Source: Arthrobacter sp. DNA4
Lineage (GTDB): Bacteria > Actinomycetota > Actinomycetes > Actinomycetales > Micrococcaceae
NCBI RefSeq assembly: GCF_024362385.1
Contig: NZ_CP101466.1
Location: 372,001-436,000, forward strand
Length of the DNA stretch: 64,000 nt
Reading direction: 5' to 3'
How positions within the stretch are numbered: position 1 is the first letter of the stretch; each line of letters begins with the position of its first letter. A program made the translations under genes and the position numbers. This document shows positions 15,145 to 28,924 of the stretch, piece after piece. The notes below the pieces were generated by a model. That model searched no databases, was not told the origin of the DNA, and saw nothing but the letters and a program-made list of their open reading frames with translations.

Positions 15145-16035
15145 ATGGCCGACCGTTACGAACTGGGCATCGACCCCACAAAGCTCGATGCCATCGACAT
15201 GCACGTCCACCTTGAGGTGGACAGCTGCGGCCACGGTTCCCTGCCGGAGGAACTGACCGAAGCCTCGGCCAAGTACTTCAAGGCCGAGGACCGCGCCCCG
15301 TCCCTGGACCGCATCGCCGAGGTTTACCGCGGAGTGAACATGGCCGCCGTCGTCTTCACCGTGGACGCCCGCACCCAACTCAAGCACGAGCCCAACAGCA
15401 TCCCCGAACTCATCGCCGGTGCCGCCCGGAACAATGACGTCCTGATCCCGTTCGGCAGCGTGGACCCTCGCACCGGCGAGGACGCCATCGCCGGCGCCAA
15501 ACACCAGGCCATCGAACTCGGCGCCCGCGGCTTCAAGTTCCACCCGTCCCTGCAGGGCTTCGACCCCTCCAGCGAGCGCTTCTACCCGCTCTGGGAAACC
15601 CTCCAGGAACTGGGCCTGCCCGCCATCTTCCACACCGGCCAAAACGGAATGGGCGCGGGCCTTCCCGGCGGTTTCGGCATCAAGCTGGCCTACTCCAACC
15701 CCCTGCTCCTGGACGCCGTGGCCGCGGACTTCCCGGGCCTGCAGATCATCATGGCCCACCCGTCCGTGCCGTGGCAGGACGAGGCCAACTCCATCGCCAC
15801 CCATAAGGCCAACGTGTTCATCGACCTTTCCGGCTGGTCGCCCAAGTACTTCCCGGAATCGCTGGTGAAGGCCTCCAACTCCTACCTCCAGGACAAGGTG
15901 CTGTTCGGCACCGACTTCCCGCTGATCACCCCGCAAAAGTGGCTCGGGGCCTTCGCGGACCTCCCGCTGAAGGACGAGGTCCGGCCCAAGATCCTCAAGG
16001 ACAACGCGGTCCGCCTCCTCGGGCTGGGTGGCTGA
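15145..16035 (+). CDS. Amidohydrolase family metal-dependent hydrolase
   Basis: 296-aa TIM-barrel enzyme of the Amidohydro_2 group, which contains decarboxylases and hydrolases of aromatic or cyclic acids. The metal-binding HxH is in IDMHVHLEV near residue 21. Further barrel ligands are the Lys region RGFKFHPS, the His in IFHTGQNG, the His in IIMAHPSV and the Asp in LFGTDFPLI. It could hydrate or decarboxylate a ring or dicarboxylic intermediate in the CoA-dependent route. Start ATG 15145 follows the SDR stop at once, and the next gene abuts its stop. Confidence 0.83.
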   Translation: MADRYELGIDPTKLDAIDMHVHLEVDSCGHGSLPEELTEASAKYFKAEDRAPSLDRIAEVYRGVNMAAVVFTVDARTQLKHEPNSIPELIAGAARNNDVLIPFGSVDPRTGEDAIAGAKHQAIELGARGFKFHPSLQGFDPSSERFYPLWETLQELGLPAIFHTGQNGMGAGLPGGFGIKLAYSNPLLLDAVAADFPGLQIIMAHPSVPWQDEANSIATHKANVFIDLSGWSPKYFPESLVKASNSYLQDKVLFGTDFPLITPQKWLGAFADLPLKDEVRPKILKDNAVRLLGLGG

Positions 16036-16036
16036 G

Positions 16037-17251
16037 ATGGGCACGCTGGCGACGCCGGATGCCGCCCTGGGTGCCCGGCTGTACGAAGCAGCGGACTGGT
16101 ACGACGCCGAGTCCCTACTCACTCCCGAGGAGCGCCAGGTCCTGTCCCGGCTGCGGTCATTCCTGGACGCGAACGCCAGGCCCCTCCTGGCCGAGTACTG
16201 GGAACGCGGGGAGTTTCCCGAGCAGCTCGCCCGGCCGCTGATCGACCTGGACCTGATGGAACCTGCCGAGCTCACGGCCGACGGCCCGGCCCGCGGCATT
16301 TACCAGGGCTTCCGGATCTTCGAGCTTGCCCGCACGGACGCGTCCCTGGCCACCTGGTACACCGCCCAGGCCGGCCTGTTCCGGACAGCCATCCGGGTGG
16401 GTGCGTCGGCGGAACAGCAGGCCGAATGGATGCCCAAGGTCATCGACTTCTCCCTCAAGGGCGTGTTCTCGCTGACCGAACCAGAATCCGGATCGGACAT
16501 CGCCGGCGGACTCTCCACCACCGCCCGGCGGCAGGCCGACGGCAGCTGGATCCTGGACGGTGCCAAACGCTGGATCGGCGGCGCAGTCACCGCGGACGTC
16601 CTCGCAGTATTCGCCCGGGACACCGCGGACGGGCAGGTCAAGGCCTTCCTCGTGGACCGGACAGCCGACGGCGTCAGCCTGGAGAAGATCCAGGGCAAGA
16701 CCTCGCTGCGGATGATGCAGAACGCCCACATCACCCTCACCGGTGTCCGCGTCCCCGAGGCCATGCGCCTGCACAACGTGAACTCCTTCCGGGATGTGGC
16801 GGCGATGCTCCGGGCCATGCGCTCGGACGTCGCCTGGATCGCCACCGGCATTGCCGCCGGTGCCTTCGAGGCCGCCCTCGCCTACGTCAACGAACGCCGG
16901 CAGTTCGGCCGGACTCTAGGCTCCTTCCAGCTGGTCCAGGAAAAACTGGCCCGCATGCTGGGCAACGTCACAGCCAGCCTGTCCCTGGTGGTCCGGCTCA
17001 CGGAACAGCAGGCCAAAGGCGTCTACCGCGACCAGGACTCCGCCCTGGCCAAGATGCAAACGTCCCTGTTCATGCGCGACACCGTAGCCCTGGCCCGCGA
17101 AGTGGTGGGCGGCAACGGCATCACCCTGGCAACCGCCGTCGCGCGTTTCCACGCTGACGCCGAAGCCGTTTACTCGTACGAAGGCACCCACGAGATCAAC
17201 GCCCTCATCATCGGCCGCGCCCTCACCGGCGAAAGCGCCTTCACCCGCTAA
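16037..17251 (+). CDS. Acyl-CoA dehydrogenase
   Basis: 404-aa flavoprotein of the acyl-CoA dehydrogenase family. It has an N-terminal helical domain, the middle beta-domain motif SLTEPESGSDIAGG near residue 148, and a C-terminal helical domain with RRQFGRTLGSFQLVQEKLAR and EVVGGNGI. The catalytic Glu is in YEGTHEINALIIGRAL near 380. The pattern is closest to glutaryl-CoA-type dehydrogenases. It would introduce a double bond into the acyl-CoA made by the ligase of the operon. ATG 16037 is chosen; a GTG at 16028 overlaps the previous stop. Confidence 0.9.
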   Translation: MGTLATPDAALGARLYEAADWYDAESLLTPEERQVLSRLRSFLDANARPLLAEYWERGEFPEQLARPLIDLDLMEPAELTADGPARGIYQGFRIFELARTDASLATWYTAQAGLFRTAIRVGASAEQQAEWMPKVIDFSLKGVFSLTEPESGSDIAGGLSTTARRQADGSWILDGAKRWIGGAVTADVLAVFARDTADGQVKAFLVDRTADGVSLEKIQGKTSLRMMQNAHITLTGVRVPEAMRLHNVNSFRDVAAMLRAMRSDVAWIATGIAAGAFEAALAYVNERRQFGRTLGSFQLVQEKLARMLGNVTASLSLVVRLTEQQAKGVYRDQDSALAKMQTSLFMRDTVALAREVVGGNGITLATAVARFHADAEAVYSYEGTHEINALIIGRALTGESAFTR

Positions 17252-17304
17252 GCCCTGCAACACCTGCACAGCACCACAACCACACACCAGCCCAGGAGGC
17301 AACG

Positions 17305-17760
17305 ATGCCCAATCTCGTCGTCGATTTCGACACCCTGCTCACCCTGTCCGGCAAGGACCTCGGCACCACCGACTACCGCCAGATCACCCAGGAACAGATC
17401 AACCTGTTCGCGGACGCCACCGACGACCACCAGTGGATCCACACCGACCCCGAACGGGCCAAGGACGGCCCGTTCGGCGCACCCATCGCCCACGGTTTCC
17501 TCACCCTGTCCCTGATCATCCCGTTCTGGGGCGAGCTGTTCGACGTCGAGGGCGTCACCACCAAGGTCAACTACGGCCTGGACAAGGTCCGCTTCACCTC
17601 ACCGGTCACCGCGGGCTCCAAGGTCCGCATGCAGGCCACCATCGCCGAGGTGACCGAGGTCAAGGGCGGCGCCCAGATCAAGGTCAACGCCACCATCGAG
17701 ATCGAAGGCCAGGAACGCCCGGCCGTCGTGGCCGAATTCCTGGCCCGCTTCTACAAGTAA
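17305..17760 (+). CDS. MaoC family (R)-enoyl-CoA hydratase/dehydratase
   Basis: 151-aa single hot-dog domain protein. The hydratase motif with catalytic Asp and His is seen in INLFADATDDHQWIHTDP (residues 33-50), then the helix-flanking GPFGAPIAHGFLTLSLI near 58. It would add water to the enoyl-CoA produced by the upstream acyl-CoA dehydrogenase. It starts 53 bases after that gene, with CAGGAGG as ribosome site. Length is normal for the stand-alone R-specific hydratase group. Confidence 0.9.
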   Translation: MPNLVVDFDTLLTLSGKDLGTTDYRQITQEQINLFADATDDHQWIHTDPERAKDGPFGAPIAHGFLTLSLIIPFWGELFDVEGVTTKVNYGLDKVRFTSPVTAGSKVRMQATIAEVTEVKGGAQIKVNATIEIEGQERPAVVAEFLARFYK

Positions 17761-17867
17761 GCCGCTTCCACCAGTAACAGCAGTTCCAAACCCCAGGCGG
17801 TCCGCTCCGGCGCCGCCGCCTCAGGCAACCCCAAAACCCCCACATTCCTCCGTTTTTAGGAACAGCC

Positions 17868-19193
17868 ATGTCCGGACACACCACGCTCGCACCTGCGGGC
17901 ACGGCCGCCAAGCGCAAGGAAGCGCGCACGGTCATCCTGTCCAGCTATCTGGGCAGCACCATCGAGTTCTACGACTTCCTGCTGTATGCCACGGCAGCAG
18001 CAGTGGCCTTCCCCAAGGTCTTCTTCGCCGGCACGGACGAATGGGTGGGCGTCGTCGCCGCTTACGCCACCTTTGCCGCTGGGTACGTTGCCAGGCCGCT
18101 GGGTGGCGTGATCTTCGGTCACTTCGGTGACAAGGTGGGCCGCAAGGGGATGCTGATCATCTCCATGGCCATGATGGGCATCGCCTCCACCCTTATTGGT
18201 GTGATTCCGGGTGCCGGCGTGATCGGGCCGTGGGGCGCGGTCATCCTGGTGCTGCTGCGGGTCTGCCAGGGCATCGCCGTCGGCGGTGAATGGGGCGGGG
18301 CCGCACTGATGGCCCTGGAGCACGCGGACCCCAAACGGCGCGGCTTCGCGGCGTCGTTCGTCAACGCCGGTGCCCCCACCGGCGCCGTGCTGGGCACCCT
18401 GGTAATGGGCGCTTTTTCGGCCCTGCCGCAGGATGCGTTTTTGGCCTGGGGCTGGCGCGTGCCGTTCCTGCTGTCCTTCGTGCTCCTCATCGTGGGCATG
18501 TTCGTCCGCCTCCGGGTCTCCGAAAGCCCCATCTTCGCCGAGGCCGTGGCCAAAGAAGAGGCGCAGGGTGCCAAGCGCAAGATCCCGCTGCTGGACGTGC
18601 TCCGCCGGCCCAAGGCACTGATCATGATCATGTTCGCCGGGGCTGCCGGTTTCGGCCTGCAGGTGGTGCTGCCCACCTTCTCCGTGACGTACGCCGTGTC
18701 CAAGGGCGCACCGCAACAGGGCGTGCTCTACGCCTTCGCCGGAGCCTCCGCCATCTCCATCGTCTTCGTCCTGCTGGGCGGCCGCCTTTCGGACCGGTTC
18801 GGCCGCCGCCCGGTGATGATCGCCGGCCTGGCCCTGTTCATCGCCTACCTCTTCCCAATGTTCGGCATGCTCGGCTCGGGCAACGTGGGGTTGGTCTTCC
18901 TGGCCTTCACCGTGGCGCTCATCCTGCACTCCTCCCTTTACGGGCCGCTGGCGGCGTTCGTGTCCGAACAGTTCGGCACCACCTCCCGCTACACCGGCGC
19001 CGCCGTGGGCTACCAGCTGGCCACCCTCATCGGCGCAGGCTTCACCCCGGGCATCATCGCCGGACTCTACAAGGACTCCGGGCAAAACATCCTCCCGGTG
19101 GTGGTGTTCCTGTCCGTCATGGCGCTGGTCTCGATTGTCTTCATCACCCTGACGCGGGAATCTAAGAACAACGACCTCACCACGGTCCGTTAG
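17868..19193 (+). CDS. MFS transporter, metabolite:H+ symporter (MHS) type
   Basis: 441-aa major facilitator with about 12 membrane helices. The MHS subgroup is indicated by the opening SSYLGSTIEFYDFLLYATAA, by RPLGGVIFGHFGDKVGRKG between helices 2 and 3, and by RVCQGIAVGGEWGGAALMALEHA in helix 4. Members import dicarboxylates, shikimate, proline betaine or aromatic acids with protons. Here it probably brings in the acid that the following ligase activates. AGGAAC lies before ATG 17868. The ligase begins seven bases after its stop. Confidence 0.9.
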   Translation: MSGHTTLAPAGTAAKRKEARTVILSSYLGSTIEFYDFLLYATAAAVAFPKVFFAGTDEWVGVVAAYATFAAGYVARPLGGVIFGHFGDKVGRKGMLIISMAMMGIASTLIGVIPGAGVIGPWGAVILVLLRVCQGIAVGGEWGGAALMALEHADPKRRGFAASFVNAGAPTGAVLGTLVMGAFSALPQDAFLAWGWRVPFLLSFVLLIVGMFVRLRVSESPIFAEAVAKEEAQGAKRKIPLLDVLRRPKALIMIMFAGAAGFGLQVVLPTFSVTYAVSKGAPQQGVLYAFAGASAISIVFVLLGGRLSDRFGRRPVMIAGLALFIAYLFPMFGMLGSGNVGLVFLAFTVALILHSSLYGPLAAFVSEQFGTTSRYTGAAVGYQLATLIGAGFTPGIIAGLYKDSGQNILPVVVFLSVMALVSIVFITLTRESKNNDLTTVR

Positions 19194-19200
19194 GAGAACC

Positions 19201-20763
19201 ATGGACAACAATGGAGTTGGATCCTGGCTGCAGCGCCGCCGCCGGAAGTCGGGCTCCAAGGCAGCCCTCCTGTCCGGTGCCGGCGCCTTGAGCTACCAAG
19301 AGCTGGCCGAAAGGGCCGACCGCCTGGCCAACGCACTCCGGGACAGGGGAGTGGCCAAGGGTGACCGGGTGGCCTACCTTGGCGAGAACCACCCTTCCTT
19401 CGTGGAAACGTTCTTTGCCTGCGGCATCCTGGGCGCCATCTTCGTGCCGCTGAACACCCGGCTCGCGCCGCCGGAACTGCAGTTCCAGCTGCAGGATTCC
19501 GGAGCCCGGCTCCTGGTCAACGCCGGCGTCCTTGAGGCGTCCGCAACTGCCGCGCTGGAAGGGACCGGTGTCACCCACCGCCTGGTGGTAACGCTCGACG
19601 GCGGGACGGAACCTTCCGCCGCCGCGTCACCCGCCGCCGTCGAACGCTCCGTCACGGTGGAACAGTACGGGGAGGCGCTGCAAACGGCGGCTGCCGAACC
19701 CGTCGACGTGCCCGTGGCCCATGACGACGGCGCCATGATCCTGTACACCTCCGGGACCACGGGCAAGCCCAAAGGTGCGCTGCTGACGCACGGGAACATC
19801 ACGTGGAACTGCATCAACACCATCGTGGACATGGACCTGAACCGCAACGACGTGGCGCTGATGATCTCGCCGCTGTTCCACGTGGCGTCCCTGGACATGG
19901 GGCTGCTGCCGATGCTCCTCAAGGGCGCCACCGTGGTCCTCGAGGCCAAGTTCGATCCCGCCAGGGTTCTGGACCTGATCCAGAAACACAAGGTGACCAC
20001 CCTCAACGGGGTGCCCACCACGTTCCAGCTGCTTTGCGAAGACCCAGGCTGGGCAACCGCGGACCTCAGCTCCCTGGACAAGCTCACCTGCGGGGGCTCC
20101 GCCATTCCGCGCCGGGTCCTGGACGCGTACGAGGACCGCGGCATCGGCTTCACCAGCTGCTACGGCATGACCGAAACGGCCCCCGGCGTCACCATGCTTC
20201 CCGTGGACCGGTCCAGGGAGAAAGCCGGTTCGGCGGGCCTGCCGCACTTTTTCACCGACCTCCGGATCGCCGATCCCATGGGTGGCGCGGTGGCCCCTGG
20301 CGAGGTGGGGGAAATCCAGATCTCCGGCCCCAACGTGATCAAGGAGTACTGGAACCGGCCGGAGGCCACTGCCGCCAGCTATGCGGACGGGGCATGGTTC
20401 CGCTCCGGCGACATGGGCTACCGGGACCCGGAAGGCTTCCTGTTCGTCTCGGACCGGCTCAAGGACATGATCATCTCCGGCGGGGAGAACATCTACCCGG
20501 CAGAGGTGGAAGCGGTCATCTCCGAGCACAGTGCCGTGGGCAGCGTGGCCGTCATCGGCGTCCCGGATGACAAATGGGGCGAGGTCCCCCAGGCGATCGT
20601 GACCCTGCGCGAAGGGGAATCGTTGACCGCGGAGCAGCTGCGCAGCTTCCTCGACGGCAGGCTCGCCCGCTACAAGATCCCCAAGTCATTAGTGGTGGTG
20701 GAGGACATGCCGCGCACCGCCAGCGGCAAAATCCGCAAGATGGAGCTCCGCAAGCAGCTCTGA
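19201..20763 (+). CDS. Acyl-CoA synthetase (AMP-forming ligase)
   Basis: 520-aa ANL-superfamily enzyme that activates a carboxylic acid with ATP and CoA. The phosphate loop is YTSGTTGKPKGA near residue 182, the A5 motif is GMTETAPGV near 322, the hinge is RLKDMIISGGENIYPAEVE near 420, and the catalytic Lys is in TASGKIRKMEL at the end. It is the last gene of the cluster, after a proton symporter, and a hairpin follows. The acid is unknown; medium-chain, dicarboxylic and aryl acids are all possible. Confidence 0.9.
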   Translation: MDNNGVGSWLQRRRRKSGSKAALLSGAGALSYQELAERADRLANALRDRGVAKGDRVAYLGENHPSFVETFFACGILGAIFVPLNTRLAPPELQFQLQDSGARLLVNAGVLEASATAALEGTGVTHRLVVTLDGGTEPSAAASPAAVERSVTVEQYGEALQTAAAEPVDVPVAHDDGAMILYTSGTTGKPKGALLTHGNITWNCINTIVDMDLNRNDVALMISPLFHVASLDMGLLPMLLKGATVVLEAKFDPARVLDLIQKHKVTTLNGVPTTFQLLCEDPGWATADLSSLDKLTCGGSAIPRRVLDAYEDRGIGFTSCYGMTETAPGVTMLPVDRSREKAGSAGLPHFFTDLRIADPMGGAVAPGEVGEIQISGPNVIKEYWNRPEATAASYADGAWFRSGDMGYRDPEGFLFVSDRLKDMIISGGENIYPAEVEAVISEHSAVGSVAVIGVPDDKWGEVPQAIVTLREGESLTAEQLRSFLDGRLARYKIPKSLVVVEDMPRTASGKIRKMELRKQL

Positions 20764-20773
20764 CGTTCGCTGT

Positions 20774-20810
20774 ACAACGCCCGCCCCGGTATCCCGGAGC
20801 GGGCGATTGT
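20774..20810 (+). terminator. Terminator after CoA-catabolic operon
   Basis: CGCCCGC (20778-20784) pairs with GCGGGCG (20799-20805), and flanking ACAA/TTGT extend the stem past a one-base bulge. It lies 10 bases after the ligase stop and before the convergent LacI gene. Confidence 0.7.
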
Positions 20811-20985
20811 CTTAAGGGGCGATGAGCCCTGTCAGGCGGCACGTCCACGGGCGCCCGTTTGGAAAGTGACACCGAGACTGCGGTGGAAGGAAGCGCGCCA
20901 CCTCGATTTCGACAACAGCGGAGCTTCCGTGGATGTCAACGACTTCGCAACCCAGACAACCCCAGGGGCAGCATAGGGTGCTGTT

Positions 20986-22011
20986 TCACGTACCGGTGCG
21001 CTGGGGCGCTCCGCTGGATTGGCGTGGGATGAGAGTGGGCATGGACCGGCGGATGAGTGGTTCGATGCCTGGGTTGACGATGAGGTCGATGGCGGTGGCT
21101 GCTATCTGGTCCAGGGGAACGTGCACCGAGGTCAGGGGCGTCGGCAGCCGGGCGGACAGTGGCGTGTCGTTGTATCCGACCAATGCCAGATTGTCGGGGA
21201 TGCTGATCCCGTTGCGGTGGGCTGCGGCCATGACACCCATGGCGATGTTGTCGTTGGCGGCGAAGATGGCTGTCGGGCGGGATTGCGGTGTTCCTGCGAG
21301 GAGCGTTTCGCTTACCGTGTAGCCATTCTCGATGCCGTACCCGGCAGCGATAAGCCATTCTTCGCGCGGCTGGATGCCTGCTTCATTCAGTGCTCTGCGT
21401 GCTCCCGCCAAGCGTGCGGTTCCGGTGGAGGTGAAAGCGGGGCCGGTAACGACAGCAATGTTGCGATGGCCCAGGTCGATGAGGTGACGTGTGGCGAGGT
21501 AGCCGCCGACCTCGTCGTCTCCGAGCGCCGAGGGACTGATGCCGTCGGTTCGGAGCACCAGCGCATGCGCTACACGGCGCTCACGCAGCAGTCGGGGGAG
21601 CTCGTCATCGAGCCGCGCCGTGGCGAGAATCAACCCATCGACGTTTCTATCGAGGAGTGTTTCGGCCGCGCTGCGTTCATCCACGGGGTCATCTCCGCTG
21701 GTGGCGACCATCGCAAAGTAGCCGCGGGAAGACGCTGCCTTCTCGAGCTCTTCGAACATCAAGGCCATGACCGTGTCGCTGAGCCGGGGCACAAGGACGC
21801 CCAAAGTCCGGGTCTCGCCGCGGCGCAGGCTTGAGGCAAAGGAGTTCCGCCGGTACCCGAGTTCTTCCGCGATCTTCCGGACATGGGCTGCCGCCGCGGA
21901 TCTGGAGGTGGTGCGTTCATCCAGCGCGCGGCTGGCGGTCGAGATGCTCACGCCACTGGCAGCCGCGACATCCTTGAGCGTGACAATCCCTGCGGGGGCG
22001 GGACGTTCCAT
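20986..22011 (-). CDS. LacI family transcriptional regulator
   Basis: 341-aa repressor. The helix-turn-helix and hinge are at residues 8-60 (VTLKDVAAASGVSISTASRA and VRKIAEELGYRRN), followed by the periplasmic-binding-protein-like effector domain (GVLVPRLSDTVMALM, FAANDNIAMGVMAA, NLALVGYNDTPLS). The start at 22011 (MERPAP) has AGGAG upstream; the open frame to 22185 crosses the promoter. It is divergent from the DapA-family gene and the MFS gene, and three CG-centred sites in the gap fit a LacI-type protein. Its effector is probably a sugar acid or the substrate of the DapA-like enzyme. Confidence 0.92.
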   Translation of the reverse strand: MERPAPAGIVTLKDVAAASGVSISTASRALDERTTSRSAAAAHVRKIAEELGYRRNSFASSLRRGETRTLGVLVPRLSDTVMALMFEELEKAASSRGYFAMVATSGDDPVDERSAAETLLDRNVDGLILATARLDDELPRLLRERRVAHALVLRTDGISPSALGDDEVGGYLATRHLIDLGHRNIAVVTGPAFTSTGTARLAGARRALNEAGIQPREEWLIAAGYGIENGYTVSETLLAGTPQSRPTAIFAANDNIAMGVMAAAHRNGISIPDNLALVGYNDTPLSARLPTPLTSVHVPLDQIAATAIDLIVNPGIEPLIRRSMPTLIPRQSSGAPQRTGT

Positions 22012-22062
22012 CGCGGTTCTCCTCTTCAGCAAGGGTGTTACAGCCACTCTATTCCTCCTTCT

Positions 22063-22129
22063 TGCAAACGTTCTCTTGACAGTGAGCTGCGACACGTGCA
22101 AACTTGAAAACGTTCCCGCAAACGATTTC
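22063..22129. promoter_or_regulatory. Promoter with three LacI-type operator sites
   Basis: Three related CG-centred sites are present: GCAAACGTTCTC (22064-22075), GAAAACGTTCCC (22106-22117) and GCAAACGATTTC (22118-22129). TTGACA at 22076-22081 is a consensus -35 box for the DapA-like gene, immediately after the first site. The outer pair would allow repression by looping or road-block. Confidence 0.75.
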
Positions 22130-22178
22130 ATCTTAGCGGAACTACCGACCATCAATGAAGACAAGAAGGTAGCTGCAA

Positions 22179-23114
22179 ATGGCACTCGATCTCCGCGGAC
22201 TTAGCCCCGCACCTGTCACCCCGTTCACCGAAGATGGCGCTGTCGACTTCGCTGCGATCCAGCGCCTGGGTTCGTGGCTCGGATCGATTGAGGGCGTAAA
22301 GAGCCTCGTCGTCCTGGGCCACGCCGGCGAAGGCACGTTCCTCACCGAAGAAGAACAGCTTGACGTCATCCGCGCGTTCGTGGCCTCCACCGACGGCCGG
22401 GTACCGGTTGTGGCTGGTATCACCAAGGAAGGCAACAAGACTGCGGCCCTCGAGGCCAAGAAGGCCGTCGAGGCCGGCGCGTCAGCTGGTCTCGTTTACC
22501 CCTCGCACGGCTGGCTGCGCTTCGGCTACCAGCAGGGCGCACCGCAGTCGCGCTACAAGGAAATCTATGAAGAGTCCGGCCTGCCGCTGATCCTCTTCCA
22601 GTACCCCGACAACACCAAGGCGACCTACGACCTCGACACTCAGCTGGAGATCGCTGGCCAGGAGGGAGTCTTTGCCACGAAGAACGGTGTCCGGAACATG
22701 CGTCGGTGGTACACCGAGATCCCCGCCCTGCGCGCCGCTTACCCCGAACTGCAGATCCTGTCCTGCCACGACGAATACCTGCTGCCGACAATGTTCGATG
22801 TCGACGGCCTGCTCGTCGGCTACGGTAACATCGCCCCCGAACTGCTCGTCGAACTGATCGAAGCAGGCAAGGCGCAGGACTACAAGCGTGCCCACGCAAT
22901 CCATGAGCGGCTGCTCCCGGTAACGAAGAACGTTTACCACCGCGGCTCCCACATGGAAGGCACGGTCGCCTTGAAGTGGGGCCTCGTGAACCGCGGCATT
23001 CTGGACCACGCCACGGTGCGCACCCCGCTCCTGCCCCTGCCCCAGGGCGCCGAAACCGAAATCGCGGAAGCCTTCGCTGCCGCGAACATCGGCAAGGTCA
23101 CCGTCAGCGCCTGA
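22179..23114 (+). CDS. Dihydrodipicolinate synthase/N-acetylneuraminate lyase family protein
   Basis: 311-aa DapA-superfamily aldolase or dehydratase with a TIM barrel. Seen are the substrate-carboxylate loop GHAGEGTFLTEEEQ near residue 48, the barrel Tyr in LILFQYPDNTK near 144, and the Schiff-base Lys in VFATKNGVRN near 168. It is not the lysine-pathway enzyme by context: it is controlled by a LacI protein and followed by an MFS transporter. It may cleave or dehydrate a 2-keto sugar acid or a hydroxyproline- or aromatic-derived keto acid. A strong terminator separates it from the transporter. Confidence 0.82.
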   Translation: MALDLRGLSPAPVTPFTEDGAVDFAAIQRLGSWLGSIEGVKSLVVLGHAGEGTFLTEEEQLDVIRAFVASTDGRVPVVAGITKEGNKTAALEAKKAVEAGASAGLVYPSHGWLRFGYQQGAPQSRYKEIYEESGLPLILFQYPDNTKATYDLDTQLEIAGQEGVFATKNGVRNMRRWYTEIPALRAAYPELQILSCHDEYLLPTMFDVDGLLVGYGNIAPELLVELIEAGKAQDYKRAHAIHERLLPVTKNVYHRGSHMEGTVALKWGLVNRGILDHATVRTPLLPLPQGAETEIAEAFAAANIGKVTVSA

Positions 23115-23126
23115 TCCCCGGATCCT

Positions 23127-23157
23127 GAGGATGGCGGGAGCAACTCCCGCCATCCTC
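23127..23157 (+). terminator. Strong hairpin between DapA-like and MFS genes
   Basis: GAGGATGGCGGGAG (23127-23140), loop CAA, and the exact complement 23144-23157 give a 14-bp perfect stem. It lies 13 bases after the stop, with only a weak T-content tail, so it may attenuate rather than fully stop transcription into the MFS gene. Confidence 0.75.
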
Positions 23158-23229
23158 CCCTAGGCTTTAGCCATCTCCACTCTGGTCAATGAGGACCCCA
23201 GCATCACCGCTGGAGAAGGAGGACTCGCA

Positions 23230-24627
23230 ATGCGCGAGCCAAACAACACCACAACCATGGCTGGCGGCCCCAACGCCGCCAGGATCAATGCAGAGCTCGT
23301 AGCCCGCCTCGAACGGCTCCCGCTCACCCGACGCCTGACCCTCATCCGCGTGGTCATCGGGTCAGCCACGTTCTTCGACGCTTACACCGTCCTGGCCATC
23401 GCATTCGCAATGCCCCAGCTGTCCTCAGAATGGCACCTCACCGCCGGGGAAATCGGAATGATCCTCTCCGCCGGCTACGTCGGCCAAATCTTCGGATCAC
23501 TCTTCTTCGGCCAACTCGCCGAACGGATCGGACGCCTCCCGGTCCTGCTGATCACGATCCTGCTTTTCGTCTCCATGGACGTAGCCTGCCTCTTCGCCTG
23601 GGGCGCCACGTCAATGATCATCTTCCGCTTTCTCCAAGGCATCGGCACCGGCGGCGAAGTACCGGTCGCCAGCGCCTACATCAACGAATTCGTCGGAGCC
23701 AAGAAGCGCGGCAGATTCTTCCTGCTCTACGAGGTCATCTTCCCTGTCGGTCTCATGTTCGCGGGCGTCGCCGGATACTTCCTCGTCCCGGTCGTTGGCT
23801 GGAAGGCCATGTTCATCGTCGGCATCGTCCCGGCCCTGCTCACCATCCCGATGCGGTGGCTGATGCCCGAATCACCGCGCTGGCTAGCCTCCCGCGGACA
23901 CGTCCACAAAGCCGAAACCGTCGTCACCATGCTCGAAAAGGAAGCACTCAAGGCAGGACACACCCTCTCCGAGCCCGTCATCCGCCCCGTGGATCCGAAG
24001 GCCACCGCCCGCACCAGCTGGCGCGAACTCTTCTCAGGCATATACAAAAAGCGCACCTTCATGATCTGGATGCTCTGGATCTGCGTCTACATGGTCAACA
24101 ACGGCCTGGTCACCTGGCTGCCGACCCTTTACAAGCAGACATTCAACCTCCCCCTGCAGACCAGCCTCGCCTACGGCTGGGTCACCTCCGCCGTGGGCGT
24201 CGTGGCATCCATCCTCTGCGCACTGCTGATCGACCGCGTAGGCCGTAAACGTTGGTACACATTCGCCTTCCTGGCCGCGACCGTCCCTCTTGTCATCCTC
24301 ACAGCCCTCGGCGCCGTGTCGGCGACACAGGTCGTAGTATTCGCCAGCATCGCCTACGCCATCCTCCAGACCATCTCCTTCTCGCTCTACCTCTACTCCG
24401 CCGAGCTGTACCCGACCCGGCTCCGCGCCATCGGCACCGGCTTCGGCAGCGCCTGGCTCCGCGCCGGCTCCGCCATCGGCCCCATCCTGGTCGGCTACAT
24501 CGTGGACAACTACGGCATCAGCCTGGTGTTCACCGTCTTCGCAGCCGTTGCCCTCATAGGTGGCCTGGTGACTATCTTCTTCGCCATCGAAACTAAAGGC
24601 CGGGTCCTCGAGGAACTCTCGCCCTAA
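23230..24627 (+). CDS. MFS transporter, sugar/acid:H+ symporter
   Basis: 465-aa protein with 12 predicted helices. Family signatures are GQLAERIGRLPV after helix 2, RFLQGIGTGGEVPVASAYIN in helix 4, PESPRWLASRG before the central loop, and DRVGRKRWYT after helix 8. This fits the sugar-porter/aromatic-acid transporter branch. GAAGGAGGA precedes the ATG. It lies downstream of the DapA-like gene and probably imports the compound that enzyme degrades, although the hairpin between them means its expression may be tuned separately. Confidence 0.88.
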   Translation: MREPNNTTTMAGGPNAARINAELVARLERLPLTRRLTLIRVVIGSATFFDAYTVLAIAFAMPQLSSEWHLTAGEIGMILSAGYVGQIFGSLFFGQLAERIGRLPVLLITILLFVSMDVACLFAWGATSMIIFRFLQGIGTGGEVPVASAYINEFVGAKKRGRFFLLYEVIFPVGLMFAGVAGYFLVPVVGWKAMFIVGIVPALLTIPMRWLMPESPRWLASRGHVHKAETVVTMLEKEALKAGHTLSEPVIRPVDPKATARTSWRELFSGIYKKRTFMIWMLWICVYMVNNGLVTWLPTLYKQTFNLPLQTSLAYGWVTSAVGVVASILCALLIDRVGRKRWYTFAFLAATVPLVILTALGAVSATQVVVFASIAYAILQTISFSLYLYSAELYPTRLRAIGTGFGSAWLRAGSAIGPILVGYIVDNYGISLVFTVFAAVALIGGLVTIFFAIETKGRVLEELSP

Positions 24628-24814
24628 CTCCCTAGCACCCGCCTCAATGGCAGCGCCACGAACCAGCTCCGGTCCGTGGCGCTGCCGTTGCCAGTCAAGG
24701 ACTACCCTCGGAACATTGCTTCCCGTTCCGCCCAGATCCCAGGTGCGCCGTCTTGAGGACACTCGCGCTGCGCTTCGGCGGCCAAGGCGTCGACCTCAAA
24801 GGCGCATTGCCGCG

Positions 24815-24860
24815 GGATTCCGCCGTTGTTACCGTTCACGGTCATCAATTGGCGGAATCC
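24815..24860 (+). promoter_or_regulatory. Nested inverted repeats upstream of BASS symporter
   Basis: GGATTCCGCC (24815-24824) and GGCGGAATCC (24851-24860) are perfect complements enclosing ACCGT-TC-ACGGT (24831-24842). The set ends 25 bases before the symporter start. It may be an operator or a structured mRNA leader. The region 24628-24814 before it shows nothing else. Confidence 0.55.
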
Positions 24861-24885
24861 TATAGGACAGTGCCACCATTATTGG

Positions 24886-25884
24886 ATGCTTGAGGCAACT
24901 AAACCCCAGAAGTCCCCGGACGGGACACCCGTCAATCCCGCGCTCGAGGCGGAAAGCAGGATCGCCCGCATCGCGGTGACTGTGTTCCCCATCCTGGTGG
25001 TCGTTGCCGGCATCCTCGGTTTCCTGCTCCCCGGAGTCTTCAAGCCCATGGCCCCCAGCGTGCCCTACCTGCTGGGCATCATCATGTTCTGCATGGGCCT
25101 GACCCTCACCCCGCCGGACTTCGCCGCCGTGGCCAAGCGGCCGTGGGCTGTGGCCTTGGGAATCGTGGCGCACTACATCATCATGCCCGGCGCAGGCTGG
25201 CTGATCGCGGGCGCCCTCAACCTCCCGCCCGAGCTGGCCGTCGGCGTGATCCTGGTGGGCTGCGCACCCTCCGGCACGGCCTCGAACGTCATGGCCTTCC
25301 TGGCCAAGGGCGATGTTGCCCTCTCCGTGGCCGTGGCCTCCGTCTCCACCCTGATCGCCCCGATCGTCACCCCGCTGCTGGTCCTGTTCCTGGCCGTCTC
25401 GTACCTGCAGATCGACGCTGCCGGCATGGTCCTGGATATCGTCAAGACCGTGCTGCTCCCGGTGGTGGTAAGCCTCCTCGCCCGGGTCTTCCTCAAGAAG
25501 CTCGTTGCCAAGGTGCTGCCCGCGCTGCCGTGGGCGTCCGCCGTCGTGATCTCCCTGATCGTGGCCATCGTGGTAGTAAGCAGCGCCAACAAGATCATTG
25601 AGGCCGGGGCCATCGTCTTCCTCGCCGTGGTGCTTCATAACGGATTCGGACTGGGCCTTGGCTACCTTGCCGGCAAGCTGGGCCGCCTGGACGACAAAGC
25701 CCGCCGCGCCCTCGCGTTCGAAGTGGGCATGCAGAACTCCGGCCTGGCCGCGACGCTGGCCACCGCCCACTTCACGCCCCTGGCCGCACTGCCGTCCGCG
25801 GTCTTCTCGCTGTGGCACAACATCTCCGGGGCCATCGTGGCCGCCTGGCTGGCCCGGCGCCCGCTGCAGGACAAGCAAGCCTAA
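24886..25884 (+). CDS. Bile acid:sodium symporter (BASS) family transporter
   Basis: 332-aa membrane protein with about 9-10 helices. BASS motifs are seen as LLGIIMFCMGLTLTPPDFA near residue 58, GWLIAGALNLPPELAVGVILVGCAPSGTASNVM split over two helices near 105-130, and EVGMQNSGLAATLA near 280. Bacterial members move organic anions such as pantoate or keto acids with sodium. ATG 24886 is chosen; a TTG at 24826 would add a poor N-terminus. No strong ribosome site is seen, so the nested repeats just upstream may matter. The next gene begins 95 bases later. Confidence 0.88.
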   Translation: MLEATKPQKSPDGTPVNPALEAESRIARIAVTVFPILVVVAGILGFLLPGVFKPMAPSVPYLLGIIMFCMGLTLTPPDFAAVAKRPWAVALGIVAHYIIMPGAGWLIAGALNLPPELAVGVILVGCAPSGTASNVMAFLAKGDVALSVAVASVSTLIAPIVTPLLVLFLAVSYLQIDAAGMVLDIVKTVLLPVVVSLLARVFLKKLVAKVLPALPWASAVVISLIVAIVVVSSANKIIEAGAIVFLAVVLHNGFGLGLGYLAGKLGRLDDKARRALAFEVGMQNSGLAATLATAHFTPLAALPSAVFSLWHNISGAIVAAWLARRPLQDKQA

Positions 25885-25914
25885 GGAGCCCGTTTCCAGC
25901 CAGCCATCCTGGGT

Positions 25915-25965
25915 ACAGGATCCGGTAGGGACAGCGCCGTTTCGACGCTGTCCGCCGGTTCCTGT
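25915..25965 (+). promoter_or_regulatory. Large two-part hairpin next to the ribosome site of the molybdopterin enzyme gene
   Basis: Outer arms ACAGGATCCGG (25915-25925) and CCGGTTCCTGT (25955-25965) match at 10 of 11 positions. The inner arms GGACAGCG (25929-25936) and CGCTGTCC (25946-25953) are perfect, around a 9-nt loop. The AAGGAG ribosome site follows at 25966-25971. This could be a leader switch, or the terminator of the symporter gene. Confidence 0.6.
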
Positions 25966-25979
25966 AAGGAGATGGACAG

Positions 25980-28445
25980 ATGGCTCGGATTGACCGGATA
26001 GCTGAACCATGGGGGACACGGACGCCGTACGGCAGCGGCGCTGACTGGCCGGTCAGGGTGGATACCCACTTGGCCGAAGGCGTGACGCCGGAGGACGTGG
26101 ACCGGTGGGTCCAGACGGCCTCGCTCCTGCATTCCAACGGCGACGCCATGGACATTGCCGTCAAGGACAACAGGATCGTTGGCGTGCGCGGACGTGCCGT
26201 GGACCGGGTCAACCACGGCCGGCTGGGACCGAAGGACCTGTACGGCTGGCAGGCCAACGCCTCCCCGGACCGGCTCACCAAACCCCTTATCCGCGAGGGC
26301 GGGAAGCTGGTGGAAACGGACTGGGACACCGCCATGCAGCGTATCGTGGACAAGTCCAAGGCGCTGCTCGCGGAACAGGGCCCCAGCGCCCTCGGCTTCT
26401 ACACCACCGGCCAACTCTTCTCCGAGGAGTACTACACCCTGGGCACTATGGCCCACGGCGGCATCGGCACCAACCACGTGGACGGCAACACGCGTCTGTG
26501 CACCGCGACGGCGGGGGAGGCGCTGAAGGAATCCTTCGGCTGCGACGGGCAGCCCGGCTCCTACACGGACGTGGACCACGCCGATGTCATCGCCCTGTAC
26601 GGGCACAACGTGGCGGAAACCCAGACCGTCCTCTGGACCCGGATGCTGGACCGGCTGGCCGGTCCCAACCCGCCCAAGATCATCTGCGTGGACCCGCGCA
26701 TGACGCCCGTGGCCAGGGCCGCCACCGTGCACCTGGCGCCGCGGCCCGGCACCAACGTGGCGCTGATGAACGGCATCCTGCACGAGATCATCACCAACGG
26801 CTGGGTGGACCAGGAGTACATCCAGGCGCACACCGTGGGGTACTCCGAGCTCGAGAAAGAGGTCAAGAACTACCCGCCGGCCCTCGTGGCGGAGATCTGC
26901 GGTGTCCCGGCGGAACAGATCTCCGAGGCGGCCAGCATCATTGGCCACGCGGAGCGGCTGCTGTCCACGGTGCTGCAGGGCTTCTATCAGTCCAACCAGG
27001 CCACGGCCGCCGCCGTGCAGGTCAACAACGTCAACATCATCCGCGGCATGCTGGGCAAACGCGGCTGCGGCATCCTGCAGATGAACGGCCAGCCCACCGC
27101 CGAGAACACCCGCGAATGCGGGGCCGACGGCGACCTCGCCGCCTTCCGTAACTGGTCTAACGACGCGCACATCCAGGACCTGGCCCGGGTCTGGAACATC
27201 GACCCCATGTCCATCCCGCACTACTCCCCGCCCACGCACGTCATGCAGATGATGCGGTACGCGGAGGACGGCTCCATCCGGATGCTGTGGGTCAGCGGCA
27301 CCAACCCCGCCGTCTCGCTGCCCGAGCTGGCACGCATCCGCAGCATCCTGGAACAGGACCGCCTGTTCCTGGTGGTGCAGGACATCTTCCTGTCCGAGAC
27401 GGCCCAGCTGGCCGACGTCGTCCTTCCCGCCGCCACCTGGGGCGAAAAGACCGGCACCTTCACCAACGTGGACCGCACCGTGCACCTCTCCGAGAAGGCG
27501 GTTGACCCGCCGGGCGAGGCCCGGCCGGACCTGGAGATCTTCATCGACTACGCCCACCGCATGGGCCTGCAGGACAAGGACGGGCAGCCGCTGATCAAGT
27601 GGCACGACCCCGAATCAGCCTTCGAGGCCTGGAAGGAATGTACCCGCGGTAAGCCCTGCGATTACACCGGCATCACCTACGACAAACTGCGCGGCGGCTC
27701 CGGCATCCAGTGGCCCTGCAACGAGGAGAACCCGGACGGCACGGAACGCATTTACGCTGACGGAAAATTCTGGGCGCACCCCGAGTACTGCGAAACCTAC
27801 GGCCGCGACCTCATCACCGGTGCCCCGGTGGAACCCACGGAGTACAAGGCCCTGAACCCGGAGGGCAAGGCCATCATCAAGGCCGCCGAATACATGCCGC
27901 CGCACGAGCTGCCCAGCCAGGACTTCCCGCTCCAGCTCATCACCGGCCGCACGCTCTACCAGTTCCACACCCGCACCAAGACGGGGCGTGCACCGGAGCT
28001 GCAGGCGGCCGCGCCTGACGTGTGGGTTGAGTTGTCAGCGGACGACGCCGGCGCGTACGGGATCGCCGAAGGTGACCTTGCCGAGGTGGAGACGCCCCGC
28101 GGTTCGGTCCGTGCGCGGGTGCGGATCAGCGGCATCCGGAACGGCGTCCTCTTCCTGCCCTTCCATTACGGCTACTGGGACACCAAGGGCGGACACCAGC
28201 CGGACGGGGCCGGGCGGGCAGCGAACGAACTGACCATTACCGACTGGGATGCGGCGTCCAAGCAGCCCATCTTCAAGACGGCGGCAGCACGCATTACCCG
28301 CATTTCCGGCGGTGATGGGCCCTCTTCGGCGCCCACCACCACGGCGTCGGCACCCGCCGGCGTCTTCCCGGAAGACGCCAGGACCAAGGGCCTACCCACC
28401 GCCTTGGCGGACGAAGCCACCGGCACGGCAGGAGGGGCACGATGA
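25980..28445 (+). CDS. Molybdopterin oxidoreductase lacking the N-terminal Fe-S cysteines
   Basis: 821 aa of the DMSO-reductase superfamily, closest in pattern to assimilatory nitrate reductase and formate dehydrogenase catalytic subunits. The usual four-Cys Fe-S site near the N-terminus is absent: there is no Cys before residue 174, and the segment WVQTASLLHSNGDAMDIAV stands in its place. Other landmarks are intact: the Mo-ligand candidate Cys174 in NTRLCTATAGEA, GCDGQPGSYTD, VVLPAATWGEKTGTFTN, and the cofactor-binding C-terminal domain (LITGRTLYQFHTRTKTGRAPEL). No twin-arginine signal is seen, so it is cytoplasmic. Its stop overlaps the next start (ATGA). The substrate and electron partner are unknown. 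Confidence 0.87.
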   Translation: MARIDRIAEPWGTRTPYGSGADWPVRVDTHLAEGVTPEDVDRWVQTASLLHSNGDAMDIAVKDNRIVGVRGRAVDRVNHGRLGPKDLYGWQANASPDRLTKPLIREGGKLVETDWDTAMQRIVDKSKALLAEQGPSALGFYTTGQLFSEEYYTLGTMAHGGIGTNHVDGNTRLCTATAGEALKESFGCDGQPGSYTDVDHADVIALYGHNVAETQTVLWTRMLDRLAGPNPPKIICVDPRMTPVARAATVHLAPRPGTNVALMNGILHEIITNGWVDQEYIQAHTVGYSELEKEVKNYPPALVAEICGVPAEQISEAASIIGHAERLLSTVLQGFYQSNQATAAAVQVNNVNIIRGMLGKRGCGILQMNGQPTAENTRECGADGDLAAFRNWSNDAHIQDLARVWNIDPMSIPHYSPPTHVMQMMRYAEDGSIRMLWVSGTNPAVSLPELARIRSILEQDRLFLVVQDIFLSETAQLADVVLPAATWGEKTGTFTNVDRTVHLSEKAVDPPGEARPDLEIFIDYAHRMGLQDKDGQPLIKWHDPESAFEAWKECTRGKPCDYTGITYDKLRGGSGIQWPCNEENPDGTERIYADGKFWAHPEYCETYGRDLITGAPVEPTEYKALNPEGKAIIKAAEYMPPHELPSQDFPLQLITGRTLYQFHTRTKTGRAPELQAAAPDVWVELSADDAGAYGIAEGDLAEVETPRGSVRARVRISGIRNGVLFLPFHYGYWDTKGGHQPDGAGRAANELTITDWDAASKQPIFKTAAARITRISGGDGPSSAPTTTASAPAGVFPEDARTKGLPTALADEATGTAGGAR

Positions 28446-28924
28446 AATTCGGGCTGGTACTGGAGGAAATGCACCGCTCCGAGAACGACCTGGCACACCA
28501 CCTGCTGGTCATCTCCGAGCGGCACAAGGTGGACCACGAGATCTACCACCTCGCCCGGGACCTGGCGCGATGGTCGCAGCAGCACGTCCGGGACATCGCG
28601 GACATCGCCAAGAACTACGGCCAAAACCTGGATCCGGAGCCCCGCGGCGAAGCAGGGCTGATGGAAACCATCCGGGAGAAGGGCAGCGAGATGGTTGGCC
28701 GTCGCCCCGAAACCGGGATGCTGCTGCTGCGCGACCTCCGCGAGCTTTACCTGAAGGCCTGCGGGGTGTCAGCGGACTGGGAACTGCTGGCCCAGGCCGC
28801 CCAGGGGATGAAGGACAAGAATCTGCTGGCCCTGGCGGAGAAGTGCCACCCGCAGACCATCCGCCAGATGAAGTGGGCCAACGGGAAGCTGAAGGAATCC
28901 GCCACCCAGATCCTGGTCAGCTAA
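28442..28924 (+). CDS. Helical protein coupled to molybdopterin oxidoreductase
   Basis: 160 aa, unrecognised. It is almost wholly helical and rich in Glu, His and Leu. The first half has many potential metal ligands in helical spacing (EEMHRSENDLAHHLLVI, then ERHKVDHEIYHLARDL), resembling a four-helix ferritin-like bundle, but no canonical di-iron motif is clear. The second half ends with KWANGKLKESATQILVS. It starts within the stop of the molybdopterin gene, so the two proteins are made together. I infer an accessory, electron-transfer or maturation partner. It has no signal or membrane helix. Confidence 0.72.
   Translation: MKFGLVLEEMHRSENDLAHHLLVISERHKVDHEIYHLARDLARWSQQHVRDIADIAKNYGQNLDPEPRGEAGLMETIREKGSEMVGRRPETGMLLLRDLRELYLKACGVSADWELLAQAAQGMKDKNLLALAEKCHPQTIRQMKWANGKLKESATQILVS

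Follow-up and report, generated by a model that had tools for sequence, protein, structure and literature searches.

The window analysed here is a 64,000-nucleotide stretch of the genome of the soil actinobacterium Arthrobacter sp. DNA4 (4.56 Mb in a single contig; NZ_CP101466.1, positions 372,001 to 436,000), and it carries on its forward strand a pair of genes encoding a molybdopterin oxidoreductase without iron-sulfur ligands (821 aa; 25980-28445) and a helical partner protein (160 aa; 28442-28924) with a ferritin-like predicted fold. An initial annotation made from the nucleotide sequence proposed both open reading frames (ORFs), and both are confirmed, as is the overlap of the enzyme stop codon with the partner start, which share the four bases ATGA at 28442-28445. 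Domain and homology searches identify the enzyme's molybdopterin and molybdopterin guanine dinucleotide (MGD)-binding domains, with scores exceeding the Pfam cut-offs (PF00384, 210 bits; PF01568, 96 bits). The Fe4S4 domain PF04879 falls below its cut-off (13.1 versus 22.7 bits), and the match is limited to residues 57-82, starting downstream of the first three former Cys positions. The best PDB match by sequence is 7qv7, FdhF of the hydrogen-dependent CO2 reductase (HDCR; 363 bits), and Desulfovibrio NapA aligns nearly full length (342 bits, residues 41-772); the alignments to both begin near residue 50 and stop where the MGD domain ends. The best NCBIfam match is TIGR01591 (formate dehydrogenase alpha), which at 466.3 bits is under the cut-off of 666.25, and in the PDB search the best chain of the trimethylamine N-oxide (TMAO) and dimethyl sulfoxide (DMSO) reductases scores only 90 bits. 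On sequence grounds the enzyme belongs to the NapA/NasC branch of molybdoenzymes.

To describe conservation we used 121 aligned rows, the window protein together with the 120 best-listed of 7931 database relatives, all at least 76% identical. The N-terminal C-x2-C-x3-C-xn-C motif of 4Fe-4S clusters is absent throughout: none of the four ligand positions is Cys in any row, with column 48 being Ser, Thr or Ala, column 51 His, column 55 Asp, and column 83 Gly (118 rows) or Asp (the remaining three). The earliest Cys in the enzyme is residue 174, and a Cys elsewhere within the first ~120 residues occurs in just four rows. The claim of the initial annotation that there is no Cys before residue 174, and with it no usual N-terminal cluster, is thus borne out, and, judging from the aligned residues, normal assembly of the cluster is precluded. 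By alignment to relatives that retain three or all four of the ligands (here called 3-Cys and 4-Cys enzymes, those with none being 0-Cys), the former Cys-x2-Cys-x3-Cys now reads Ser48-x2-His51-x3-Asp55 (26121-26144), and the site of the former fourth Cys reads Gly83-Pro-Lys85-Asp86 (26226-26237). Because His51, Ser52, Asn53, Gly54, Asp55, Lys85 and Asp86 are each found in 121 of 121 rows, the emptied pocket is under strong selection and is not visibly decaying in these relatives. His51, Asp55 and Asp86 are still invariant (40/40) in a wider 0-Cys set.

The window's own genus contains eleven loci (62-66% identity) in which the first three Cys are kept (ACVLCSNGC) and the fourth is Gly (GRLGPKG), and the 3-Cys state is also seen on plasmids of Deinococcus, Hymenobacter, Halomonas and Curtobacterium and in a Staphylococcus plasmid enzyme (42% identity); the more distant relatives L055-L057 carry all four Cys. 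Homologues with four N-terminal Cys aligning over this region had been named as grounds for abandoning the notion of a missing cluster; such homologues do align, as do the 3-Cys enzymes, and the finding is not overturned, since their alignment over the region shows that an ancestral cluster has been lost. We compared 69 rows (40 0-Cys, 25 3-Cys, three 4-Cys and one unreadable), a set that includes 15 hand-picked members of 292 listed database proteins and two near-copies (L063 and P0241), and from which the duplicates and fragments L001-L008, L029, L048, L050 and L052-L054 were left out. Only columns 10, 51, 55 and 86 separate the 0-Cys from the 3-Cys rows (thresholds 93% and 85%), with Asp86 in 40 of 40 0-Cys rows against Gly in 25 of 25 3-Cys rows. 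Trees built without the Cys columns (FastTree, and a quick IQ-TREE run on 48 of the 69 rows) place the 3-Cys lineages basally with the 0-Cys enzymes nested among them, although the base is unsure because the long Staphylococcus branch meets a long outgroup. The free IQ-TREE tree requires two changes for the 0-Cys state because L041, a 0-Cys enzyme, lies beside actinobacterial 3-Cys rows, but a single 0-Cys clade is not rejected (approximately unbiased test, p 0.061). A plasmid copy in Gloeothece verrucosa (L061:6225-8765) looks broken, with the N-terminal part missing from the open frame.

The expected Mo ligand is Cys174 (26499-26501), presumably the position of NapA Cys140, and it is conserved in all 121 rows, where it is always followed by Thr, and in 68 of 68 classified rows across the 0-, 3- and 4-Cys enzymes. 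A putative active-site Arg lies in Arg378-Glu379 (27111-27116), which aligns with an Arg-Asp of Desulfovibrio NapA and is also Arg-Glu in two of the three 4-Cys relatives; we take Arg378 to be the active-site Arg of nitrate reductases. By aligned position the enzyme therefore has the Cys ligand and the substrate-site Arg that characterise NapA and NasC, and its active-site residues (Cys-Thr, Arg-Glu) resemble those of nitrate reductases more closely than those of formate dehydrogenases. The enzyme shares with NapA and NasC its domain order, the positions of the Mo-Cys and active-site Arg, and a near full-length alignment, and differs from them in the loss of the four Fe-S Cys, a Thr for Met after the Mo-Cys, an additional set of Cys and the helical partner. 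HDCR FdhF and the formate dehydrogenases, although closest by PDB sequence and NCBIfam, have Fe-S ligands and an active site in which Cys or selenocysteine is followed by His, rather than the Cys-Thr found here in all 121 rows. The type III DMSO/TMAO and biotin sulfoxide reductases likewise have a catalytic subunit with no N-terminal Fe-S cluster, but their Mo ligand is Ser, where this enzyme has Cys, and the similarity is lower. AioA of the AioA/IdrA arsenite and iodate enzymes has a C-x2-C-x3-C motif, pairs with a Rieske protein and lacks a protein ligand to its Mo; the 3-Cys sister clade shares this motif without a fourth Cys, whereas the window clade has none of the four. The additional Cys, which typify this family, are residues 554, 560, 580 and 604 (27639-27791), present in 121, 121, 119 and 120 of the 121 rows, and in 40, 40, 38 and 40 of the 40 0-Cys enzymes, 23, 25, 22 and 19 of the 25 3-Cys enzymes and 0, 1, 0 and 0 of the three 4-Cys enzymes.

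The enzyme and its partner are conserved together, an outcome that supports the initial annotation, which had named the lack of such conservation as a ground against it. The survey covered 99 genomes, made up of the window's own genome, 60 from its genus and 38 from its order; 28 enzyme copies of at least 62% identity and 28 partner copies are spread over 26 of them, every one of these copies lies in an adjacent pair, and no partner copy without an enzyme was found in the set. When the search is led by the partner, the enzyme lies upstream in 79 of 80 named loci, which are the best of 359 partner relatives; 76 of the 79 score as adjacent, the best enzyme alignment stopping early in the other three (L072, L103, L137), and His51 and Asp55 are present in all 76 partner-led loci with a readable motif. 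At the remaining locus, in Nonomuraea deserti (L141:8001-8471), a partner-like sequence is in frame with an ORF that by eye looks like a regulator, with no enzyme within 16 kb, possibly through rearrangement or an assembly error. In a sample of 396 genomes from the phylum, 33 had a match at E <= 1e-110, and the partner is present in 23 of the 26 loci of 0- or 3-Cys type (L029-L054, including two genomes repeated from the set of 99, and two fragments, L053 and L054, with unreadable motifs); in two of the three misses a contig end truncates the locus, and in the third (L051) no partner is seen. It was not seen at the 4-Cys loci L055-L057, for which only short flanks were available. Annotated plasmid loci have the partner in nine of ten cases, in two annotated parts in Gloeothece and fused to the enzyme in Halomonas, and a recognisable partner is absent from the 3-Cys locus of a Staphylococcus saprophyticus plasmid (L064:5953-8379), where the enzyme is preceded by a 181-aa protein without a Pfam match. 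In 52 database proteins (P0241-P0292) the partner is a domain of the enzyme, and all 45 that were aligned extend through a C-terminal partner domain and are of the 3-Cys type, with Cys in 44 (one gap), 45 and 45 of 45 and Gly in 45 of 45 at the fourth position. Fused 3-Cys enzymes occur on a Halomonas sp. KO116 plasmid (L063:5983-8811) and, by database name, in Microvirga, Massilia and Siccirubricoccus. The fusion to the enzyme C-terminus in 45 proteins suggests that the partner is a stable subunit.

Structure prediction gives the partner a four-helix ferritin-like fold, in agreement with an earlier suggestion; the canonical di-iron ligands, as judged by helix register, look unconserved. This would also distinguish it from ferritin-like four-helix proteins such as Bfr, YciE and XCC3681, and its sequence has no significant match among solved chains, a profile search of the PDB giving only chance-level matches. 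A partner of ferritin fold would be an unusual companion for enzymes of this kind.

In some 3-Cys and 0-Cys loci, though not in the close relatives of the window, the pair is accompanied by genes of HPP or nitrite-type FNT transporters. HPP genes immediately follow the partner, the fused enzyme, or the FNT gene located after the partner in five of the eight 0-Cys loci grouped as deep-branching (L039 and L044-L047, out of L039 and L041-L047; L148-L152 are wider stretches) and in the 3-Cys loci of Deinococcus, Halomonas and one relative in the genus Arthrobacter (L010); one also follows the broken copy in Gloeothece. FNT genes adjoin the pair at two places, in Deinococcus and at a single 0-Cys locus (L043/L167). 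Of the proteins tested, the three HPP proteins contain PF04982 and the FNT protein of Deinococcus contains PF01226. Nitrite transport by an HPP protein is reportedly described by Maeda et al. 2014, going by the title as cited in PMC8835330. At a distance of a few kb from the pair, L105, L123 and L126 also contain FNT-like ORFs. Other recurrent neighbours belong to the zinc alcohol dehydrogenase family (26 loci) and the SDR family (14 loci), at varying distances and on varying strands, and both also occur near the Staphylococcus enzyme; because these are large paralogous families we draw no functional inference from them. A gene scan finds a small Cys-rich protein near the pair in 14 loci (L067, L081, L099 and L100 among them), annotated in L067 as a four-helix bundle copper-binding protein. 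In the window's genome a 4-Cys NasC-like enzyme (L168:3096-5315) lies beside what by eye appears to be an MFS transporter, and despite its four Cys it is unmatched by PF04879 at E 0.001.

We propose that the pair forms an oxyanion reductase, probably for nitrate, whose Mo centre is fed directly by an external donor and which carries a docked ferritin-fold subunit. This would be a two-subunit molybdoenzyme, probably cytosolic, with a catalytic subunit of NapA/NasC type containing bis-MGD, in which Cys174 would bind Mo and Arg378 would serve the substrate, and a small subunit, probably not a ferroxidase, that would stay docked on the enzyme. In the ancestor the N-terminal 4Fe-4S cluster would have been present in its usual form; of its ligands, the fourth Cys may have been lost first, giving Gly, and the other three later, with the emptied pocket rebuilt into an invariant polar site of His51, Asp55, Lys85 and Asp86. 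The oxyanion reduced would most likely be nitrate, yielding nitrite. Electrons reach the Mo-pterin of DMSO/TMAO reductases directly from an external donor, and we suggest that here too they could pass from a docked external donor directly to the Mo-pterin, the simplest route without a proximal cluster. An electron route different from the usual one, as the initial annotation had suggested, is supported by the missing cluster ligands. Because the anatomy of the pair is shown by the sequences and the chemistry is inferred, we put this explanation at a probability of about 0.5, and several observations weigh against it. The Met and Asp beside the NapA catalytic residues are replaced by Thr and Glu; none of the 25 NCBIfam matches shown reaches its cut-off (NasC, 414.8 versus 1100 bits; NapA, 313.3 versus 904 bits); and the scan of other actinomycete 0-Cys loci of the window type turned up no HPP gene. 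The window genome already has NarG, the 4-Cys NasC-like enzyme and NirB, so that a third nitrate reductase looks redundant, and no recurrent electron-donor gene was recognised in the 40 commonest neighbour clusters, most of which are unannotated. A docking model from the natural fusion P0241 was too poor (pLDDT 70.8) and was not used.

Other routes for electrons through the enzyme can be imagined. A mononuclear metal site could occupy the vacated pocket, with His51, Asp55 and Asp86, and sometimes Asp83 and Ser or Thr48, as its ligands, and could relay electrons to the Mo-pterin in place of the cluster. The invariance of His51, Asp55 and Asp86 in 0-Cys enzymes, against Cys, Cys and Gly in 25 of 25 3-Cys rows, speaks for it, as does the retention of Lys85, which in NapA lies between cluster and pterin. 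We nonetheless regard this as unlikely, since the residues would be conserved in the same way if they formed a salt-bridge network with Lys85, and mononuclear His/Asp-type sites seldom act as one-electron relays. The electron entry could instead have moved to Cys554, Cys560, Cys580 and Cys604, as a relocated Fe-S or Zn site or as redox-active disulfides. Their near-invariance in 0-Cys enzymes and looser conservation elsewhere fit this, but the 4-Cys comparison rests on three rows, several 3-Cys enzymes miss one or two of them (Halomonas is without Cys604, Deinococcus without Cys580 and Cys604), and Cys580, in the motif WPC, is also found in NapA and HDCR FdhF, which keep the usual cluster; we consider such a centre distinctly improbable. 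A broader proposal is that the cluster was dismantled in stages, with 4-, 3- and 0-Cys states all extant, that its pocket became a conserved His/Asp/Asp site, whether or not a Cys-based centre also arose elsewhere, and that a new electron route was thereby gained; we hold this as doubtful, and we know of no such route in the DMSO reductase family. If the reaction involved no net electron transfer, as in hydration, transhydroxylation or oxygen-atom transfer between two substrates, no relay would be needed at all, in keeping with the loss of all relay ligands and with the lack of a recognised redox-partner gene recurring beside the pair, among clusters that are mostly unannotated. Acetylene hydratase and pyrogallol transhydroxylase are precedents for such chemistry in the superfamily, yet both contain Fe-S clusters, and the HPP and FNT linkage at some loci points to nitrite or formate, leaving this an improbable account.

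The role of the partner is likewise open to other readings. It is all-helical and encoded beside the enzyme, as are many chaperones of TorD/NarJ type, and it might act in maturation rather than as a subunit, but its fusion to the enzyme C-terminus in the 45 aligned proteins argues otherwise, and no TorD-type Pfam domain is matched at E <= 1, the sole match at that level being a sub-threshold DUF5810; a chaperone role thus seems rather unlikely. A di-iron ferritin-like donor replacing the lost cluster would be in keeping with the predicted fold. In an alignment of 63 partners Glu14 is conserved in 60 and His28 in all 63, and Gln121 is found in 32 of 33 partners that accompany 0-Cys enzymes against 10 of 30 that accompany 3-Cys ones. 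By helix register alone, however, Glu14 and His48 would fit one half of a di-iron site and the other half looks replaced, the ligand positions of helices C and D being Ala106, Thr139 and Gln142; the partner is already present with 3-Cys enzymes, where His48 is found in only 20 of 30; and no partner column strictly tracks Cys loss at the threshold passed by the pocket columns, Gln121 and Leu129 doing so only loosely. Because no column passes, replacement of the cluster by the partner is disfavoured, and with it the earlier idea that the partner, as an iron protein, provides a new route; we regard a di-iron donor as very improbable.

The initial annotation also drew attention to a hairpin at the ribosome site, and this is real: the folding energy of the 86-base leader is -45.3 kcal/mol (z -4.9), a stability matched by none of 200 shuffles, and the hairpin (25914-25966) ends on the first A of the AAGGAG ribosome-binding site of the enzyme gene, as read from the sequence (25966-25971, both on the forward strand). 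Rfam gave two matches at E <= 1 for the leader, both far under the gathering score. When the pairs of the hairpin are named by hand, 79.6% of cells across 15 close relatives form them, compared with 25-47% in slid controls, but RNAalifold on 15 relatives did not recover the hairpin, and covariation is weak (0.077 versus 0.068 on average after shuffling, with 13 of 500 shuffles attaining the observed score; a two-column slide scores 0.089), with only two of 20 pairs changed on both sides. A search model built on the RNAalifold structure, and not on the window hairpin, gave matches at E < 1e-9 in 12 of 51 hand-chosen sources, all Arthrobacter, Pseudarthrobacter or the window's genus and most of them the model's own rows; the others are weak, the best (L020, E 0.013) lying well upstream of the gene start. 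We therefore reject the hairpin as a conserved regulatory RNA or a general part of the system; it is a local element of close relatives. The genes further upstream (16028-25884) have a catabolic look (acyl-CoA dehydrogenase, MFS, AMP-binding, LacI regulator, DHDPS-like and SBF transporter) and no evident connection to the pair.

A literature search over the titles and abstract beginnings of open-licence papers found no description of this family. Two papers on Mycobacterium smegmatis nitrate reductase (PMC7816997, PMC3662644) report several molybdopterin oxidoreductase genes, and the searched text of two Arthrobacter papers (PMC9975570, PMC9608346) does not mention molybdopterin.

In those nitrate reductases and formate dehydrogenases that are Cys-ligated, the proximal 4Fe-4S cluster is seen as the wire to Mo. 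Here a lineage frequent in Actinobacteria keeps the Mo-Cys but has lost this cluster, and with a 3-Cys intermediate in the same genus it represents a natural experiment on whether and how the wire can be taken out. Database names such as 'nitrate reductase' conceal both the loss of the cluster and the helical partner, and how a cluster-less enzyme of this type receives its electrons is a testable question.

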